From the NCBI GenBank assembly GCA_025774425.1, contig JALGWA010000007.1, positions 1 to 13,482 on the forward strand: DNA of 13,482 bases. Reading direction: 5' to 3'. This stretch comes from a bacterium (GTDB lineage Bacteria > Arandabacterota > Arandabacteria > Arandabacterales > JALGWA01). A program made the position numbers and the translations under genes. A model generated the notes under the pieces. The model was not told the DNA's origin. It made no database searches and was given only the letters and a program-made list of their open reading frames with translations. Below are positions 4,373 through 13,482 of the stretch, piece after piece. How positions within the stretch are numbered: position 1 is the first letter of the stretch; every line of letters begins with the position of its first letter.

Positions 4373-5692
4373 TTACACGTACCATGTGCCCGATACCCGG
4401 AAGAGGGTCTCCAAGAGGCGGCGTTCGAGCTCCCCTTTTACGCCTGCACGCTCCCCCCCGGGGCCCTGCGTGCCCAGGTCGTGCTTCTCGCCCGGGTCTT
4501 CGGCGAGGTCGAAGAGCATCTCCGCACCCGATCCCATGTGCCTGATCAGCTTGTATGGGAAGGCGGCTACGCTTTTCCGCTCTGGCCCGTAGAGGAGGGC
4601 TTCGGAGAAGGCCTCGTCACCGAGCAGCGCGCCGGGCCGGGGCGGTGCCGCGCTCGATGCGCCGCCGAAGAGCGGCCCGAGGTCCCGGCCTTCCATGTCT
4701 GCAGAGGTCTCGATGCCGGCTAGGGACAGTACGGTCGGCATGATATCGACGAGCCTCACCATGCCCGGCACGCGCCGGCCCGCGGGGATGCGGCCGGGCA
4801 GGCGGAAGATGAGCGGTACCCGGAGGAGTTCATCATACAGGGTGTGGCCGTGGGCGAAGCCCCCGTGGTCGAAGAGCTCCTCGCCGTGATCGCTCATGAA
4901 GACGATGAGGGTGTTGTCGCCGAGGTTGCGGTCGTCGAGCCCCTGGATGAGATCGCCGATGGCCTTGTCGGCGAAGGCTATCTCGCCGTCGTAGAGGGCG
5001 ACGATGTGTGTCCTGTCGCGCTCCGGAAGCGCGTTCATTCTCTCGAAACCGTTCATGCGGTCGGTCGGCAGGAACTCGGGGTCGAAGCGGCAGCCCAACG
5101 GACCGCCGTAGCCCGGGTCGAAGAGCGTGTCGTAGGGAGCGGGCGGCGAGTACGGAAGATGCGGGTCGTAGTAATGCACGAAGATGAAGAAGGGGCGATC
5201 GCCCTGCCCGTCTATCCACTCGAGTGCGGCGCGGGTGGTGCCGTCGGCGGCCCTGCCGGCCGTGATGGGCTCGACGTCGTAGTGCGCGAAGCCGCGGTCG
5301 ATTCCGAAGACCGGGTTGAGCGCCGCCGTGTTCACTATCGCCCCGGTCGAATAGCCGTTTTCCGCGAGTATCGTCGCCATCGTGGGGAAACCGAGTCCCA
5401 TCGCGCTCTTCAAGAACCCGGCGCCGTGCTGCGAGGGGTAGAGCGAGGTGAAGGCGCTCGCGAAGGACGGAAGCGTCCAGGGGGCGTGGCTGACGGCGTA
5501 CTCGAAGAGCGTGCCTTCGGAGGCGAGGCGATCTATGGCCGGGCTCGTCTCCCTCTCGTAACCGTAGCAACCGAGGTGGTCCGCCCTCACCGTGTCCAGG
5601 CCGATGAAAGCGATGTTCGGCGGCCGCGGTTCTTCCCCGCAGGAGCACAGCGCCGAGGCGGCGAGCAGCGCCGCCATAATGAACCTCTTCAT
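4373..5692 (-). CDS. Sulfatase-fold lipoprotein A (alkaline phosphatase superfamily, Thr-type), ends at premature TAA
   Basis: This 439-aa protein has the sulfatase fold (PF00884-like). The N-terminus is a short hydrophobic signal with a lipobox-like LCSC at Cys18. The metal-binding strand is FIGLDTVRADHLGCYGY (Asp33), and the second metal site is SDHGEELFDHGGFAHGH (Asp268, His269). FFIFVHYYDPHLPY is typical of the family. At the nucleophile position the CxPSR motif for formylglycine is replaced by WTLPSF (72-77), so Thr73 is the likely nucleophile. Such Thr is known in LtaS/EptA-type phosphotransferases, so a sulfatase reaction should not be assumed. GGGAGGGG lies 11 nt before ATG 5692, and the gene starts 21 nt after its paralog, indicating one operon. 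It stops at TAA 4375-4373, exactly where the paralog has Glu. Confidence 0.85.
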   Translation of the reverse strand: MKRFIMAALLAASALCSCGEEPRPPNIAFIGLDTVRADHLGCYGYERETSPAIDRLASEGTLFEYAVSHAPWTLPSFASAFTSLYPSQHGAGFLKSAMGLGFPTMATILAENGYSTGAIVNTAALNPVFGIDRGFAHYDVEPITAGRAADGTTRAALEWIDGQGDRPFFIFVHYYDPHLPYSPPAPYDTLFDPGYGGPLGCRFDPEFLPTDRMNGFERMNALPERDRTHIVALYDGEIAFADKAIGDLIQGLDDRNLGDNTLIVFMSDHGEELFDHGGFAHGHTLYDELLRVPLIFRLPGRIPAGRRVPGMVRLVDIMPTVLSLAGIETSADMEGRDLGPLFGGASSAAPPRPGALLGDEAFSEALLYGPERKSVAAFPYKLIRHMGSGAEMLFDLAEDPGEKHDLGTQGPGGERAGVKGELERRLLETLFRVSGTWYV

Positions 5693-5713: not shown

Positions 5714-7531
5714 CTACTGGAGGTAGCCCACGGAGCGGAGTTCGCTTCTCATGCTTTCGCCGAGATCGAAGGCGGTTGCGTCGCCGATGGCACGGCCCGA
5801 TCGCCAGATGAGTATGTAGGGACCGTCGGGTCTCCCGGCGGGGGCACCCGTGTCCAGCCGCACGCCCCGCCGCCTGCGCACCGTGAACGGCATAGTAGGC
5901 GGATGTTCCATGCCTGTCCCGAGGTAAATCGACTCGATCGCGGTCCCGCCGTCCAGCCGCACGTCGATTCTGAGCGGTGTGTTCTCGGGATCGACCTTGA
6001 AGGCGATCGTCGCGTTGCTGCTCAGTCTGAGGTCGCTTGCGCTTATCGTGTGCGTGGCGTACCCGGCTGCGCCTATCGGTCCGGCGTCCATCATGCGGCC
6101 GTCTCGATCGAACATGCGCGAGATGTAAATGCTCCCGGCTCTCTTGTCGGCGAGCGCATCGACAGAGATGTCGAAGGAATGTTGCTCGCCTGCGCCGGAT
6201 ATCTCGATGTACCACGATTCGGAAACCCCGAAGACGGTCTTGACGAGGAGCTCCTCGAGCGCCCTCAGTGCTTCCGGGTTGGCTCCCGCGACGTCCTCCG
6301 CCTCGGCCGGATCGGTCCGGAGGTCGACCAGGGTGCCGCGGCCCGACGTCACCTCGTAGGTATATTTCCACGGGTAGGCCGTAACCGACTTTCTCTCGGT
6401 GCCGTATAGCAGCGACTCGGAATACCCGACCCCCGCCGGCAACAGGCTGCCCTCCGGGGCGCGGGCCTCCCCGTCGCCGGTGATGAGCGGCTTGAGGCTT
6501 GCGCCCTCGAGATGCGCCGCCGGCTGGATGCCCAGGAAGTCCAGGAACGTGGGGGTGACGTCGGTGAGCCGAACGTGGGCCGTCACGCGCGACGGTCCGG
6601 CGACGGTCCGCGGAGGCGCCACTATCAGCGGAACCTTGATGACTTCATTGTACAGCGAGTGGCCGTGCTCGAACCCGCCGTGTTCGAAAAACTCCTCCCC
6701 GTGGTCGCCCAGCAGGATAATGAGCGTCCTGTCGGCGAGGTGCCTCTCCTCCAGGCCGGCCAAGAGTCGGCCGACGGCATGGTCCGCGAACCGGATTTCC
6801 CCGTCATAGAGCGCCCTTATGTATTCCCAGTCTTCCTCGGACACGGATTTCATGGACTCGAAGTTGGTGGCCCGCGCGCGAGGGAAGACGCTTATGTCGA
6901 AGGGCAGCGGCAAGCTCCCCGCGTAGTCGGGACAGAATTGTCTGTCGTAAGGTGGCGGCGCACCGTAGGGGAGGTGGGGGTCGAAGTAATGGACGAAAAT
7001 GAAAAAGGGTTCGTCGATGTGCTCGTCTATCCACGCGAGGGCGTCGGCGGTCGTGCCGTCCGCGACCCGGCCCGCGAAGGGCGGCTTGTAGTCGTAGTAT
7101 TCGAAGCCGCGGTCCAGCTTGAACTCGGGTCTCAGGAAGGGCGCGTTGACGATGGCGGCTGTCGAGTAGCCCCTCTTGAGCAGCATCATGGCCAGCGTCG
7201 GGTGATCCGTCCGGAGGTGCGTATTGAGGGCCGAGGCGCCGTGTTGGGACGGGTAGAGCGAGGTGAATATGGTCGCGAATGACGGCAGCGTCCATGGAGC
7301 CTGGCTGGTGACGTTCTCGAAGAGCGCCCCCCGCGCGGCGAGACTGTCTATTTCCGGGCTGGTGTCGCGCCCATACCCGTAGCAGCCGAGGTGATCCGGT
7401 CGCAGGGTGTCGATGCCGATAATGACGACGTTGAGGGGCTGGCTCCCGCGGCTGCATCCAGCCCACACCGTCAGCGCCGAGACGGCCGCCACGGCCGCCA
7501 GCCTCCAGAAATCATGCCTCATCACGCCCAT
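5714..7531 (-). CDS. Sulfatase-fold lipoprotein B (alkaline phosphatase superfamily, Thr-type), full length
   Basis: This is the intact 605-aa paralog of the downstream gene. It has a hydrophobic N-terminus ending VWAGCS (Cys26, lipoprotein-like although Trp at -3 is atypical), IIGIDTLRPDHLGCYGYGRDTSPEID with metal ligand Asp41, APWTLPSFATIFTSLYPS with Thr81 in place of the formylglycine Cys, FFIFVHYFDPHLPYG, and GDHGEEFFEHGG as the second metal site. A beta-rich domain of about 160 residues follows WYIEISGAG and ends ELRSVGYLQ. The frame stays open upstream for hundreds of codons antisense to the lamin-tail gene, but sulfatase sequence begins only here. ATG 7531 and ATG 7522 are both possible; 7522 gives 602 codons, equal to the paralog. 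It is the first gene of the two-gene operon. Substrate unknown. Confidence 0.88.
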   Translation of the reverse strand: MGVMRHDFWRLAAVAAVSALTVWAGCSRGSQPLNVVIIGIDTLRPDHLGCYGYGRDTSPEIDSLAARGALFENVTSQAPWTLPSFATIFTSLYPSQHGASALNTHLRTDHPTLAMMLLKRGYSTAAIVNAPFLRPEFKLDRGFEYYDYKPPFAGRVADGTTADALAWIDEHIDEPFFIFVHYFDPHLPYGAPPPYDRQFCPDYAGSLPLPFDISVFPRARATNFESMKSVSEEDWEYIRALYDGEIRFADHAVGRLLAGLEERHLADRTLIILLGDHGEEFFEHGGFEHGHSLYNEVIKVPLIVAPPRTVAGPSRVTAHVRLTDVTPTFLDFLGIQPAAHLEGASLKPLITGDGEARAPEGSLLPAGVGYSESLLYGTERKSVTAYPWKYTYEVTSGRGTLVDLRTDPAEAEDVAGANPEALRALEELLVKTVFGVSESWYIEISGAGEQHSFDISVDALADKRAGSIYISRMFDRDGRMMDAGPIGAAGYATHTISASDLRLSSNATIAFKVDPENTPLRIDVRLDGGTAIESIYLGTGMEHPPTMPFTVRRRRGVRLDTGAPAGRPDGPYILIWRSGRAIGDATAFDLGESMRSELRSVGYLQ

Positions 7532-7537
7532 ACACCC

Positions 7538-7543
7538 AATATA
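7538..7543 (-). promoter_or_regulatory. Possible -10 element of the sulfatase operon
   Basis: TATATT (5 of 6 matches) on the minus strand stands out in a GC-rich region. It lies 6 nt before ATG 7531, so transcription would begin at or near the A of that ATG. No good -35 is visible at 16-18 nt. If real, the transcript from 7531 would be nearly leaderless, which fits the lack of a ribosome binding site. Confidence 0.3.
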
Positions 7544-7607
7544 TCGGCCCGCCTCGGGCCCGGCCACACTATTTTGGCCCTGCGTTTGGGGTCTGGCCGC
7601 ACCCGAC

Positions 7608-7660
7608 TGTGCATTTTGAGCTCTGACCCCTCGAAATTGTGCATTTTGAGCTCTGACCCC
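7608..7660. repeat. Two exact 23-nt direct repeats with 30-nt period
   Basis: Copies at 7608-7630 and 7638-7660 are identical over 23 nt (core GCATTTTGAGCTCTGAC), separated by the 7 nt TCGAAAT. A degenerate third piece, ATTTTGGCCCTG, starts at 7571, and a GGGGTC (7588-7593) faces the GACCCC ends. The unit is more AT-rich than its surroundings. It lies in the divergent gap between the sulfatase operon and the lamin-tail gene. It resembles dispersed REP-like intergenic repeats or a pair of operator sites. Confidence 0.85.
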
Positions 7661-7673
7661 CGGCGGTGGGGGC

Positions 7674-7703
7674 TTGACCGGGCGGCCGGCGCGCCCGTAT
7701 GCT
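7674..7703 (+). promoter_or_regulatory. Promoter for the lamin-tail protein gene
   Basis: TTGACC (7674-7679, 5 of 6) is followed after 18 nt by TATGCT (7698-7703, 4 of 6). It begins 14 nt after the direct repeats and points to the gene at 7805, giving a leader of about 95 nt. Confidence 0.4.
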
Positions 7704-7804
7704 CGGTGAAACCTCGAGAAGGGGGGTGGTAAGAGACAGGGCGGTTGAGTGACCGGCGGAACCGCTGCTCCGAAGCCAAAGCAAACGATGGGAGGTTGTG
7801 GAGG

Positions 7805-9208
7805 ATGTGGAAAGCTTTGGGTTTCTTTCTTGTTTACCTCGCATTGACGACCGCGCTTTCGGTCGGCCCGGTTCTCTCGGGCCCGGTGATCAACGAGTTC
7901 ATGCCGGGTCCGGGCAGCGATTGGGACGGCGACTTCGATTTCGACTCGAGAGATGACGAGTGGGTCGAGATAGCCAACACGGGTTCGACGACCATCGACC
8001 TCGACATGTGCCGCCTGCTGAACGGCGCCGCGCGGCGGCCCGTCTACGGCTTCGCCGGCGCCCTCGAGCCCGGCGGGTTCCGGTGCGTCTACGGCTCCGA
8101 CGCCCTCCTCTGGCAGAGCGAGAACGGCGCCGGTTCGGTGGGGCTGAGTCTCAACAACTCGGGCGACATACTCTGGCTGGTCACGGTGGATGCGGGGGAC
8201 ACGACGGTGATCGATTCGATCGAGTACACCTCGGCCGGGGTCGGCCCCGACGTGTCCACCGGGCGGCTGCCGGACGGCGGCCCCTGGACCGTCTTCGACC
8301 ACTTCGCGGACAGGGGCGGAACGGGCCTGGACCCCACGCCGTCCGGTTCCAACTCGGCCTCCGCCCCGCCGCATATCGTGGAGGTGGCGCGGGCGCCGCT
8401 GCATCCGAGCGGCGAGGACAGTGTCCTGATCACCGTCACGGCCGGAGACGCCGACGGCGTCACGCGGGCGCTGCTTGCCTTCGACATCAATCTCGAAGAC
8501 GGCGAGGAACTCCCGATGTCCCTGATCTCGGGCACTGCCGACCTCGGCACGTGGGGTTTCACCATACTCCCGTGCGATGTCGGTGACACCGTGCACTACA
8601 GGGTCACCGTGGAGGACGGCGCAGGCGGCGTCACGCGATCCCCGTGGCAGGGCTACCGCGTCATGCAGTGTTCGCTCGCCGTAAGGATCAACGAGATCCT
8701 CGCCGATCCCCCGGCGGGAATCGGCGGCGACGCCAATCGTGACGGCGTCCGGGACGCATCCGACGACGAGTTCGTCGAGATCCGGAACTGCGGCGCCGCG
8801 GCCGTGGACATGTGCGGATGGATGCTCCGGGACGACTCCAAGGTGCGCCATGTCTTCGAGGACGGTGTCGTGGTGGCCCCCGGTGAGTTCGTTACCGTGT
8901 TCGGCGGCGGGAATCCGACGGGCTTCTCCGGCAAGGTGTATACCGCCTCGACGGGAAGCCTCGGTCTTCTCAATTCCGGCGACGACATAAGCCTGCTCGA
9001 CGGCGGCGCCGGGCTCATCGATTCCCACTCGTACGCCACCGAGGGCGGGCGGGACGAGTCAATGGTGCGCTACCCCGACTGCGCCGACTACTGGACGCTG
9101 CCGTCGGAGTTCGGCTCGGGTGCGCCGTTCAGCCCCCATGAGCCCAATGACCCGCAGAGCGCCCTGACGGGTTCGACATGGGGCGGCATCAAGGCGCTAT
9201 ACCGCTGA
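7805..9208 (+). CDS. Secreted protein with two lamin-tail domains and C-terminal TWGGIKALYR signal
   Basis: This is a 467-aa exported protein. MWKALGFFLVYLALTTALSV is a signal peptide with likely cleavage near VLS-G (25/26). Two lamin-tail-like domains are visible: VINEFMPGPG...DEWVEIANTGSTTIDL (28 to about 175) and RINEILADPP...DEFVEIRNCGAAAVDM (294 to about 425). Each has an acidic loop (DGDFDFDSRDDE, DANRDGVRDASDDE) before the WVEI/FVEI strand. Between them is an Ig-like segment (190-288). The protein ends STWGGIKALYR, matching the tail of the protein ending at 319. GGGAGG (7790-7795) lies 9 nt before ATG 7805; the TTG at 7745 only adds a charged stretch before the signal peptide. Lamin-tail domains are common in secreted surface or nuclease-associated proteins. 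No catalytic domain is seen, so a structural or surface role is inferred. Confidence 0.88.
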   Translation: MWKALGFFLVYLALTTALSVGPVLSGPVINEFMPGPGSDWDGDFDFDSRDDEWVEIANTGSTTIDLDMCRLLNGAARRPVYGFAGALEPGGFRCVYGSDALLWQSENGAGSVGLSLNNSGDILWLVTVDAGDTTVIDSIEYTSAGVGPDVSTGRLPDGGPWTVFDHFADRGGTGLDPTPSGSNSASAPPHIVEVARAPLHPSGEDSVLITVTAGDADGVTRALLAFDINLEDGEELPMSLISGTADLGTWGFTILPCDVGDTVHYRVTVEDGAGGVTRSPWQGYRVMQCSLAVRINEILADPPAGIGGDANRDGVRDASDDEFVEIRNCGAAAVDMCGWMLRDDSKVRHVFEDGVVVAPGEFVTVFGGGNPTGFSGKVYTASTGSLGLLNSGDDISLLDGGAGLIDSHSYATEGGRDESMVRYPDCADYWTLPSEFGSGAPFSPHEPNDPQSALTGSTWGGIKALYR

Positions 9209-10653: not shown

Positions 10654-10978
10654 CCGGCGGGACTGCATTTTCGCCGCACAATGCAACGTGAGAGTCGCAG
10701 ATTGCACGCGTCTCGACCTGTGGATTCGATGGCTTTGTTGGCGGTGCTGCGGCATATGCGCGCTCGTCGTGGGCGGATTTGGCCGGTCCTGCCGGTATGC
10801 GGAGTATCGAGTGCGACGATGCGCCGCGGCCTGCGATGTTTGGCCGATTCCTGCCGTCCTTTGCCTTTGCCGATGACGGGAACGCCCGCGGTTTAGCCCG
10901 GCATCCGGCACGGTACCTGCAACGGAAGAGAGCGAGTTAGTGGCGTTCTATAGGCTGTATTACCGAGAGGTGGTTGTC
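10654..10978. other. Non-coding leader/intergenic region before the pilin cassette
   Basis: This stretch of about 325 nt has no convincing gene. It contains the TGCATT/AATGCA dyad near the left edge. An imperfect long stem pairs GCGC..TCGTCG (10758-10769) with CGACGA.GCGC (10814-10824). There are two near-copies of TTTGGCCG..CCTGCCG (10778-10795 and 10839-10856). No clear sigma-70 promoter or known riboswitch core was recognised before the pilin genes. Short ORFs here have compositions unlike the neighbours and no start signals. Confidence 0.5.
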
Positions 10979-11503
10979 ATGAAGACCCGGGCCTCCAAAC
11001 CCGACCTCGGAAGTGAAAGAGGATTCACCATGGTCGAGATCCTCGTGGTCGCGGCTGTTTTCGCGATGGTGCTGGCGTTCTCCCTGCCAGCCCTGAAGAA
11101 CAGCAGCAAGACCGCCAGGCTCATGAACGCGGCCCGCGAGGTGTCGTCGACGATGAAGCTGGCGAGAGCGAGGGCGGTGGCCACGGCTAATGCCGTCATC
11201 GTCGAGTTCGACGCGGACGCGGGGACCTTCCAGGCGTTCGAGGACGCCGACGGCGATTCGACCTGGGACGCCGGGGAGGTCAAGATAGGCCCGTACGAAC
11301 TTCCCAGCGACATCCGGTTCATGGACGTGGGGTTCGCCGGCGGCAAGGTGACCTTCACGGCGAGCGGGGCCGCGAGCGAAACGCAGTCGCTGGTTCTCCT
11401 GGCGTGCACGGGCCACGCCCAGCGCGTGAATGTCAGCGCCCCCACGGGCCTGGTCTATGTGTCGCAGGTCTACGGTTATGAGGAGGGCACCGGGGACAGA
11501 TGA
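10979..11503 (+). CDS. Type IV minor pseudopilin, GspH/FimT type
   Basis: This is a 174-aa prepilin. The leader MKTRASKPDLGSERG is followed by FTMVEILVVAAVFAMVLAFS: cleavage after Gly15 by prepilin peptidase, Glu at mature +5, then the hydrophobic helix. The next segment, AREVSSTMKLARARAVATANAVIVEFD, is the typical GspH/FimT N-terminal region. DADGDSTWDAGE is an acidic loop of EF-hand or thrombospondin type, often seen in these proteins. GAGAGG lies 8 nt before ATG 10979; the GTG at 10940 would make an unusually long leader and is less likely. It is the first gene of a minor-pilin cassette that would prime or cap a type IV pilus or type II secretion pseudopilus. Confidence 0.9.
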   Translation: MKTRASKPDLGSERGFTMVEILVVAAVFAMVLAFSLPALKNSSKTARLMNAAREVSSTMKLARARAVATANAVIVEFDADAGTFQAFEDADGDSTWDAGEVKIGPYELPSDIRFMDVGFAGGKVTFTASGAASETQSLVLLACTGHAQRVNVSAPTGLVYVSQVYGYEEGTGDR

Positions 11504-11537
11504 GAACGTTGTTGCGTCCCGATGGAGGCGATCGGCA

Positions 11538-11921
11538 ATGAGAGCTGTCGTGAATGAAAAGGGTCTGACACTGATCGAATTGTTGATTGTGTGCGTGATC
11601 ATCGGCTTCGCTTTCCTGGGGCTCGCCAATCTGTTCCCCGTGAGCACGGCCGGCCTCAACGAGAGCCGGATGCGTACCACGGCGACCGACTTCGCCCGGG
11701 AGAAGATGGAGGAGCTGTTGGAGATCGACGGCGCCTCCGCCGACCTGAATGCCGGTACGCATAATGATCCCGACAACCCGATCCGCTCGAGCTTCATGAG
11801 GCGATGGACCGTTACGGACGACGTACCGGTGCCTGACATGAAACGACTGCAAGTGACCGTGGAGTATCCCCACGGAGAAGAAACGAGGTCCGTAACCCTG
11901 GTAAGTTACAGGCGAGATTGA
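11538..11921 (+). CDS. Type IV minor pseudopilin, PilV/GspI type
   Basis: This is a 127-aa prepilin. MRAVVNEKG is the leader, and LTLIELLIVCVIIGFAFLGL follows, with cleavage after Gly9 and Glu at +5. The helix then reads LANLFPVSTAGLNESRMRTTATDFAREKMEEL, which is the PilV/GspI pattern (helix, then AxxxAREKMEEL). The soluble part is short, with RRWTVTDDVP and VTVEYPHGEE strands typical of the family. GGAGG (11524-11528) lies 9 nt before ATG 11538; the upstream extension from 11430 overlaps the previous gene and is rejected. It lies 34 nt after the GspH-like gene and 18 nt before the PilW-like gene, in the usual gene order. Confidence 0.9.
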   Translation: MRAVVNEKGLTLIELLIVCVIIGFAFLGLANLFPVSTAGLNESRMRTTATDFAREKMEELLEIDGASADLNAGTHNDPDNPIRSSFMRRWTVTDDVPVPDMKRLQVTVEYPHGEETRSVTLVSYRRD

Positions 11922-11939: not shown

Positions 11940-13482
11940 GTGCAAGGCAAGAACCGAGAAAAGGGCTTCACGGTGATCGAAATGCTCGTCGTCGTGGCGA
12001 TCCTGACGCTTCTCGCCGTCCCGTTGCTTCAGATGCTGATGGGCGGCGGAAGGGCGTCGAGGGTGGCCAGTCTCGACTCCGAGGCGCAGCAGAACGCCAG
12101 GGTCGCCGTGGATTTCGCAGTCAGGGACATTCGTTCCCTCGGCTATGAGATTGACCATGCCAACGGGCAGTCCGGCATAGTGTATGCCGACGGCTATGAC
12201 CTGATATTCAACGCCAACATCGAACCCGCCAGCGACGATGGCGGCACCCCGGGCTATCCCGCCGCCATAAACACGGCCGCGAGCCCCGCGACTGTGCCTG
12301 CTTCGGGTACGGTTCTCTATGCTCCGCCCCGGACGTTCGGCACGGGCGCAGAGACGATCAGGTTTACGCTCGATTCGAGCAATGACGGGACCGTGGATGC
12401 TGCAGACGCATCCGATGACGACATCGAGGACACCGCCAATCCCCATGACTACCTGCTCGTCAGGCAGGTCTACGGGTACGACGGTTCGGGCAACGGAGGC
12501 GCGAACGAGCCCATAGCCTTGATAAGGGGTCCGGACCCTTATGAAGACGGCTCGTATCCTCCGCCCCTCTTCGAGTACTGGTACGATCACGACGACGACG
12601 AGTCGACTCCGGATGCGCTATGGGGGGACACCAACGGCGACGGTGAGCTCGACCAGTCCGAGATCGCCATGCTCGGCCCGGTCAGCGCCGCCAATCTTCC
12701 CAGAATCACGAGAGTGGCCGTCACCGCGATCGGCACCTCGAGGAGCCAGGACCGGCGACTCGGCTCGAACGACGGCTATCGCGAGACCGTGATGTCGTCC
12801 GAGGCGGACGTCAGGAACGAGCCTTCGAAGGTCGCCCGGATCGCCGGGGTCGTGTTCGACGATCTCGACGGTGACGGCGAGAAGGACGCGTACGAGGGGG
12901 GCGTTGCAGGTGCGATCGTAGTGCTCAACAACGGCATGCAGAGGGTCACCGGTGCGGACGGCACGTTCGCGTTCCGCGTCGATCCCGGCAGCTACACGGT
13001 CACGGAAACCGACCCGACGGGCTACTCCTCGACCACCCCCAACGCAGTGGCCGTCAACGCCGTCAAGGGGACGACCGCGTCCGCCTATTTCGGCGACCGG
13101 GCCATGGGGGGCTACGGCAGCATTCTCGGCCGCGTCATCCTGTACGAGGGCGACCCGCCTGAGGCTACCGGAGACGGTGTCGCCGACGTCGAAGTGTTCC
13201 TGAACAGCGGGGAGCGCGACACGACCTCTCACATGGGTACGTACGCCTTCCTCGTCCCCGTCAATACGTACTCCATCACCATGGAGGTTCCCGTCGGCTA
13301 CGTGGCTGTGGGCCCGACATCGGTCGACAGGACTCTCGCCGGCGAGGGCGATACGGTGGTCGTCGATTTCTACCTCCTTCCGGCGACTGAAACCGGGACG
13401 ATCGCGGGCAATGTGTTCCTCGACGAGGACGAGGACGGTCTTCTCGACGACGGGGAGGACGGCATCAGCAGCGTGACGATCA
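11940..13482 (+). CDS. PilW/GspJ-type pseudopilin fused to SdrD-B-like repeats (3' truncated)
   Basis: The frame is open from GTG 11940, just after an in-frame TGA at 11931, to the window edge, giving 514 residues without a stop. The prepilin leader MQGKNREKG is cut before FTVIEMLVVVAILTLLAVPL (Glu14 at +5). Residues 40-300 are a PilW/GspJ-like domain with NARVAVDFAVRDIRSLGYEI and a closing AVTAIGTSRS...DVRNEP. An EF-hand-like loop DTNGDGELDQSE lies at 230-241. After it come SdrD-B/Cna-B-like modules. Module 1 (about 300-388) contains VFDDLDGDGEKDAYEGGVAG and TGADGTFAFRVDPGSYTVTE. Module 2 is about 393-481. Module 3 begins at about 486 with GNVFLDEDEDGLLDDGEDGI. Pili minor subunits normally stop near 300 residues, so the added modules are unusual. 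The protein continues beyond the window. GTG is supported by AAGGGGA about 10 nt upstream. Confidence 0.85.
   Translation, partial: MQGKNREKGFTVIEMLVVVAILTLLAVPLLQMLMGGGRASRVASLDSEAQQNARVAVDFAVRDIRSLGYEIDHANGQSGIVYADGYDLIFNANIEPASDDGGTPGYPAAINTAASPATVPASGTVLYAPPRTFGTGAETIRFTLDSSNDGTVDAADASDDDIEDTANPHDYLLVRQVYGYDGSGNGGANEPIALIRGPDPYEDGSYPPPLFEYWYDHDDDESTPDALWGDTNGDGELDQSEIAMLGPVSAANLPRITRVAVTAIGTSRSQDRRLGSNDGYRETVMSSEADVRNEPSKVARIAGVVFDDLDGDGEKDAYEGGVAGAIVVLNNGMQRVTGADGTFAFRVDPGSYTVTETDPTGYSSTTPNAVAVNAVKGTTASAYFGDRAMGGYGSILGRVILYEGDPPEATGDGVADVEVFLNSGERDTTSHMGTYAFLVPVNTYSITMEVPVGYVAVGPTSVDRTLAGEGDTVVVDFYLLPATETGTIAGNVFLDEDEDGLLDDGEDGISSVTI
12837..13482 (+). repeat. Tandem SdrD-B/Cna-B-like modules encoded in the PilW-type gene
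   Basis: Three successive divergent copies of a module of about 90 residues are seen at the protein level. Each starts with G-x-V followed by an acidic D-x-D-x-D-G loop with D-x-x-E, then G-V/I-x-x-V strands, then G-x-Y/F and Y-T/S-V/I-T strands. Module 1 is 12837-13100, module 2 is 13116-13382, and module 3 runs from 13395 to the edge. Module 2 has the poorest acidic loop (GDPPEATGDGVADVEV). Confidence 0.75.

Follow-up and report, generated by a model that had tools for sequence, protein, structure and literature searches.

The best-studied type IVa pili have their tip protein, PilY1, as a chain of its own. We describe here a gene at the end of a 13,482-nucleotide stretch of bacterial DNA (the window, which is the whole of contig C104 of a genome, G000, that is 83% complete) in which a PilW-type minor pilin and a propeller-bearing arm appear to belong to one chain; the bacteria that have it are an uncultured group on which little work has been done. 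In published accounts of PilY1/PilC from Myxococcus, Pseudomonas and Neisseria, the complex at the tip consists of FimU, PilV, PilW and PilX together with calcium and a protein that has a seven-bladed propeller. In modular pilins, such as PilB and PilC of Streptococcus sanguinis, a functional module is grafted C-terminally and is thought to lie at the tip (PMC8179133, PMC9934059). PF13620 is named in the main text of PMC8179133, which reports 264 architectures among more than 1,200 modular pilin proteins; under the term modular pilins, that paper has already published the idea of a pilin with a functional arm attached.

The window gene resembles the modular pilins, as that text presents them, in its N-terminal class III pilin module and C-terminal graft, and PF13620 also matches its B modules. 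It differs from them in its carrier, a GspJ/PilW body within a FimT-PilV-PilW-PilX cassette, and in its graft, a three-module stalk with a seven-bladed FG-GAP propeller. The minor pilin set and the seven-bladed propeller are shared with PilY1/PilC as described in the accounts above, but here it is PilW that bears the propeller, covalently and at its distal end, and PF05567, the PilY1 model, has no match. Compared to the B modules of the staphylococcal adhesins SdrD and SdrC (microbial surface components recognizing adhesive matrix molecules), the likeness lies in SdrD_B by profile and in the acidic loops of modules 1 and 3; however, the fusion has no A domain, is pilin-borne in a secretin-bearing bacterium, and has a loopless module 2. 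A GspJ/PilW body joined to an SdrD_B stalk and a seven-bladed FG-GAP head makes a variant of modular pilins that was not described in the titles and abstracts of the openly accessible literature searched, a scope outside which Dataset S1 of PMC8179133 lies. FG-GAP, VCBS, PF13517 and SdrD have no occurrence in the main text of PMC8179133; because its architectures are listed in Dataset S1, the fusion may already be there. The main text of a 2026 survey of myxobacterial PilY1 (PMC13190605) has no occurrence of "fusion", "fused" or "Eisenbacteria".

A sequence-only reading had taken the gene for a PilW-type minor pilin fused to at least three SdrD_B-like spacers, with an effector domain that might follow past the window end; the extended sequence and the relatives bear this out. 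The Pfam search gave the two families expected, N_methyl (6.6e-7) and SdrD_B (PF17210; 3e-13 over three stretches, 50.4 bits against a cut-off of 29.7). The leader ends in glycine and is followed by a hydrophobic helix with Glu5, as in type IV pilins, and the pilin body has a GspJ-type fold, agreeing with the PilW/GspJ-like body that had been claimed. The curated gspJ model TIGR01711 scored 18.4 bits on the product, under its cut-off of 64.85. Two full modules and the start of the third lie in the window.

When the DNA of the gene (11940-13482) was searched against its own genome, the single other place found was bases 1-118 of contig C473. These match the final 118 bases of the window at 97% identity (3/118 differ), and the reading frame carries on. 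Judging from this overlap, C473 appears to be the continuation of C104. It prolongs the frame by 504 residues, supplying module 3 (SdrD_B 2e-9) and then FG-GAP repeats (FG-GAP_3 1e-8, FG-GAP 4.9e-6) up to a stop at 1513-1515, and five bases past the stop a gene with PilX_N (4.1e-6) begins. Full-length, single-frame orthologs are present in G001 (979 residues), G002 (976 residues; public record JAUVJV010000062.1, "Candidatus Eisenbacteria", locus L032) and G003 (987 residues, locus L037). In the orthologs scanned, pilin and non-pilin domains share one chain: N_methyl, SdrD_B and FG-GAP_3 were all over cut-off in L032 (FG-GAP_3 1.7e-12), in L036, and in L038 up to an in-frame stop, whereas in L037 only N_methyl and SdrD_B were. 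The G004 ortholog is split over two contigs, and the available G006 sequence holds the first 188 residues only. The G005 copy (L038, G005:C115, 8993-11914) is interrupted by a single in-frame TAG near residue 885 and may be a pseudogene, an error or a strain variant.

In all, 7/8 genomes examined from the phylum carry the gene or pieces of it (G000-G006). The eighth, G007, which is of the same class, gave only a weak SdrD_B match in another open reading frame (ORF), of 886 residues and without N_methyl. In a protein database, 85 proteins passed 1e-3 against the 976-residue ortholog among the 7,994 candidates sharing most words, which alone were scored; 71 spanned 97% or more of its length, nine were partial, and five were other SdrD_B proteins. 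Source names of the homologs include Eisenbacteria and Krumholzibacteria. A profile built from 64 of the 71 matched the full fusion or pieces in 13/386 genomes, a lower bound because two candidates were scored per genome. Six of these 13 carriers are outside the phylum: G137, G179, G201 (two copies), G214, G274 and G344 (in part).

Four highly conserved acidic loops were found: the pilin body has two, of EF-hand-like type, modules 1 and 3 have one apiece, and module 2 has none. D141, G146, D152, D305, E316, D495 and E506 (P0001 numbering) are invariant in 64 rows, and these motifs suggest that the loops may bind calcium. A lysine near strand 1, which we take to be the residue of the covalent bond in Cna_B/SpaA isopeptide modules and whose expected place here we likewise presume, was seen in 6% (B1), 37.5% (B2) and 30% (B3) of the 64 rows and in no consensus. 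From its repeats and its modeled fold, the C-terminal head is predicted to be a seven-bladed FG-GAP propeller resembling integrin alpha heads, the blades being counted from DSSP strands of the ortholog model. A rough FG-GAP pattern gave 2-6 signatures per protein and was not used as evidence.

FimT- and PilV-like ORFs lie upstream of the fusion in the window and in the same-order loci, as judged from ORF tables in relatives; outside the phylum both were clear in L107 and L110. The PilV-like window ORF matched TIGR02523 (type_IV_pilV) at 1.1e-4, below cut-off. A PilX-like gene was directly 3' of the fusion in 12/12 loci examined, a set that leaves aside the downstream piece of G004. PilX_N was present in 11/11 scanned, over cut-off in 5 and below it in 6 (E up to 0.005); in the twelfth locus (L109) the gene was assigned by eye. 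None of the 12 PilX N-termini has Glu5, and PilX elsewhere is likewise reported to lack it. Besides T2SSE-type ATPases and a secretin, the genome of the window has a prepilin peptidase domain and a partial match to PilM; a secretin was found in 7/8 phylum genomes (not in G003). G001 has a run of pilB, pilT, pilC, pilS, pilR, two pilins, ATP-binding cassette (ABC) genes, pilM, pilN, pilO, pilP and pilQ, in which family models confirm only PilB/PilT-type ATPases, PilM and the secretin, the rest being named by order and by eye. The genome of the window also has a second minor pilin cassette on contig C261 (L041 2573-5990), with a FimT-like ORF, a PilW-like protein of 290 residues in which N_methyl is the sole match, and a PilX-like protein that carries DUF4900; the corresponding cassettes in G001 and G004 also show a PilV-like ORF by eye. 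This genome may therefore make two kinds of pilus tip.

A check for a PilY1 gene had been proposed with the sequence-only reading; none was found nearby, and PF05567 was over cut-off in 0/8 phylum genomes and in 0/16 others, of which 10 were non-carriers; among the 13 carriers in these two sets it was over cut-off in none. The model was over cut-off in 7/52 unrelated genomes, which served as its positive control. On the scanned orthologs PF05567 gave no match at E up to 1, and the N-terminus has a class III prepilin signal instead of the type I signal of a soluble PilY1. A PilY1 structure was absent among the best 50 matches listed, and by sequence at E up to 10, although this is uninformative because one fold filled the list. 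PilY1 under another guise was also considered and rejected; the only weak PF05567 match of the phylum (G001, E 0.0038) lies in a C25 peptidase with FG-GAP repeats. At L086:577-5457, G001 encodes a C25 peptidase of the gingipain type, 1,627 residues long, which bears FG-GAP repeats and ends in a FlgD_ig/Por_Secre_tail-like part. The absence of PilY1 in carriers fits a covalent head but does not carry that interpretation, and we rejected it as proof, since 0/13 against 7/52 is not significant and the 10 non-carriers lack PilY1 too.

Sequence and model show the single-chain architecture, its conservation, the cassette and the machinery. From these we infer tip location, calcium dependence, ligand binding and replacement of PilY1, and consider it probable that the product of the gene is a modular minor pilin of the type IVa system, presenting a calcium-stabilized stalk and propeller at the pilus tip, a covalent counterpart of PilY1. 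The GspJ/PilW body would be processed by PilD and, by the cassette and by comparison with Myxococcus, would join FimT, PilV and PilX in a priming or tip complex. The SdrD_B modules, which are prealbumin-like and three in number, would form a stalk that is probably stabilized by calcium, since two of them have conserved acidic loops. By analogy, the C-terminal propeller would be held outward on this stalk at the pilus tip and could bind some surface, polymer or cell ligand. A separate PilY1 would not be needed because the pilus would carry its tip head covalently. As a natural fusion that fixes the order and distance of its parts, the pilin-stalk-propeller chain would make tip presentation testable with a single protein.

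Several observations weigh against this interpretation. The absence of PilY1 is weak evidence: at the 7/52 rate, chance alone would give 0/13 in about 15% of cases, the built-in control genomes gave 0/14 in each PilY1 search, the draft genomes are incomplete, and PilY1 is equally absent from the 10 non-carriers, four of which (G105, G243, G355, G371) have a short, tail-less PilW-like match. In the G003 ortholog, FG-GAP stayed below cut-off, at 12.3 bits where 26.9 are required. The structure model has a predicted template modeling score of 0.57, so the relative placement of modules in it is unreliable. FG-GAP repeats also occur in enzymes, such as the C25 peptidase of G001, and the fold gives no ligand. 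In work on M. xanthus, bulky superfolder green fluorescent protein on PilW3 or PilY1.3 blocked function, so a large tail on PilW is not automatically tolerated. Finally, the window gene itself is split across two contigs with mismatches in the overlap.

That split, together with the in-frame TAG of the G005 copy, could suggest that a pilin gene was joined to an unrelated adhesin gene in assembly, and a frameshift or join between pilin and repeats had been named beforehand as the result that would overturn the fusion. No break interrupts the frame in three genomes of the same order or in five from outside the phylum, and 71 database homologs are full length. With G001, G002 and G003 encoding everything in one uninterrupted frame, we rejected an assembly artefact as far as sequence can tell, and a chimera is extremely improbable. 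The protein could also belong to a type II secretion-like system as a pseudopilin, or be an anchor on the outer surface, with the fused domains serving secretion or envelope attachment and not a retractile pilus. Similarity of the pilin body to GspJ pseudopilins, several GspE/PilB-like ATPases per genome, and secretin matches at two loci in G002 and G005 are compatible with this, whereas the PilT-type ATPase and PilM matches, the locus of G001 in type IVa pilus order, the FimT-, PilV- and PilX-like neighbors, and a single secretin locus in G000, G001, G004 and G006 (4/7 carriers of the order; G003 has none) argue for a pilus. We regard secretion or anchoring as quite improbable.

Alternatively, as has been proposed for PilY1, the propeller could serve mainly as a cap that controls priming and retraction (a cork or calcium switch) rather than as the adhesin. 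The conserved acidic loops of the pilin body and of modules 1 and 3 would suit such a role. According to PMC13190605, the C-terminal domain of PilY1 folds as a seven-bladed propeller and contains an EF-hand-like calcium site, mutation of which abolished pili in Pseudomonas aeruginosa; published work on M. xanthus has PilY1 and minor pilins priming assembly. However, in the chain described here the propeller comes last, after three modules, whereas that of PilY1 is placed pilus-proximal in those sources, and PF05567 does not match the orthologs. We consider a cap unlikely and favor the modular minor pilin that presents its propeller at the tip.

The fusion profile also matched PilW bodies that begin other very long ORFs, in G042 (1,657 residues), G321 (1,660), G161 and G300 (about 1,200 each), G226 (940) and G084 (950). 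Residues 16-238 of the G042 protein align to the family profile with a probability of 99.3, and the G042 and G321 proteins are 33% identical over about 1,100 columns. Pfam named no tail domain in the five scanned (G042, G300, G321, G226, G084). The two giant genes of G042 and G321, at L042:3588-8561 (-) and L114:6744-11726 (+), adjoin FimT-, PilV- and PilX-like genes and a PilM-N-O-P-Q-like run, all named by eye. These data suggest that PilW is a recurrent carrier of tails. A tentative extension is that in several phyla without detectable PilY1, GspJ/PilW itself carries the tip effector as a swappable covalent head, an independent answer to the task of PilY1, with the SdrD_B-propeller as one fixed form and the giants with different tails as others, converging here on a calcium-loop seven-bladed propeller. 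We hold this to be possible but doubtful, and rated it lower because the four genomes with short PilW-like matches are also without PilY1. Such heads could offer a route to surface binding for bacteria with pilus machinery but no detectable PilY1, and a search rule would be to inspect PilW tails where PilY1 is missing.

Table 1. Features of the window around the PilW-type gene; boundaries of modules 1 and 2 were transferred from the ortholog model
Feature	Position	Strand	Basis or remark
FimT/FimU (GspH-like) minor pilin	10979..11503	+	GspH 3.7e-8, N_methyl 1.4e-5; likely ATG 10979 by eye, ORF 10940-11503
PilV-like minor pilin	11535..11921	+	N_methyl 1.1e-5; likely ATG 11535 by eye, ORF 11430-11921
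PilW-type modular pilin gene	11940..13482	+	GTG start, open at contig end; remainder on C473 of the same genome (L043:1-1515)
Class III leader VQGKNREKG (V read as M), cut before FTVIE	11940..11966	+	Sequence, N_methyl
Pilin helix alpha-1, residues 12-65	11973..12134	+	AlphaFold2 model of the window's own residues 1-298
GspJ/PilW-type globular body	12135..12827	+	
EF-hand-like acidic loop DSSNDGTVDAAD, pilin body	12372..12407	+	D145, G150, D156 invariant, 65-row alignment; metal binding putative
Second EF-hand-like loop DTNGDGELDQSE, pilin body	12627..12662	+	D230, E241 at least 90% conserved (65-row alignment); metal binding putative
SdrD_B-like module 1	12834..13112	+	Best SdrD_B stretch is residues 301-370
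Acidic loop DLDGDGEKDAYE of module 1	12861-12896	+	First and last loop residues conserved, 64/64 rows
SdrD_B-like module 2, without DxDxDG loop	13113..13391	+	SdrD_B stretches, ortholog model strands, consensus
SdrD_B-like module 3, first 30 residues only	13392..13482	+	Continues on L043, SdrD_B 2e-9 there
Acidic loop DEDEDGLLDDGE of module 3	13422-13457	+	

Elsewhere in the window, the ORF at 4373-5692 (-) and a long minus-strand ORF within 5714-9028 are neighbors with similar sequences and are sulfatase-type-like by eye. Two unrelated window proteins end in W-G-x-I-K-x-L-Y-R-stop (290-319 and 9179-9208). The DNA pattern for W-G-x-I-K-x-L-[YF]-R-stop had 53 occurrences, in all 8 phylum genomes (G000-G007), and none when read backwards or in 4 unrelated genomes. 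A literature search on this C-terminal end found nothing. Several of the 13 ORFs with the pattern that were read start with a signal-peptide-like stretch by eye, and from sequence the shared end may be an undescribed C-terminal sorting tag.
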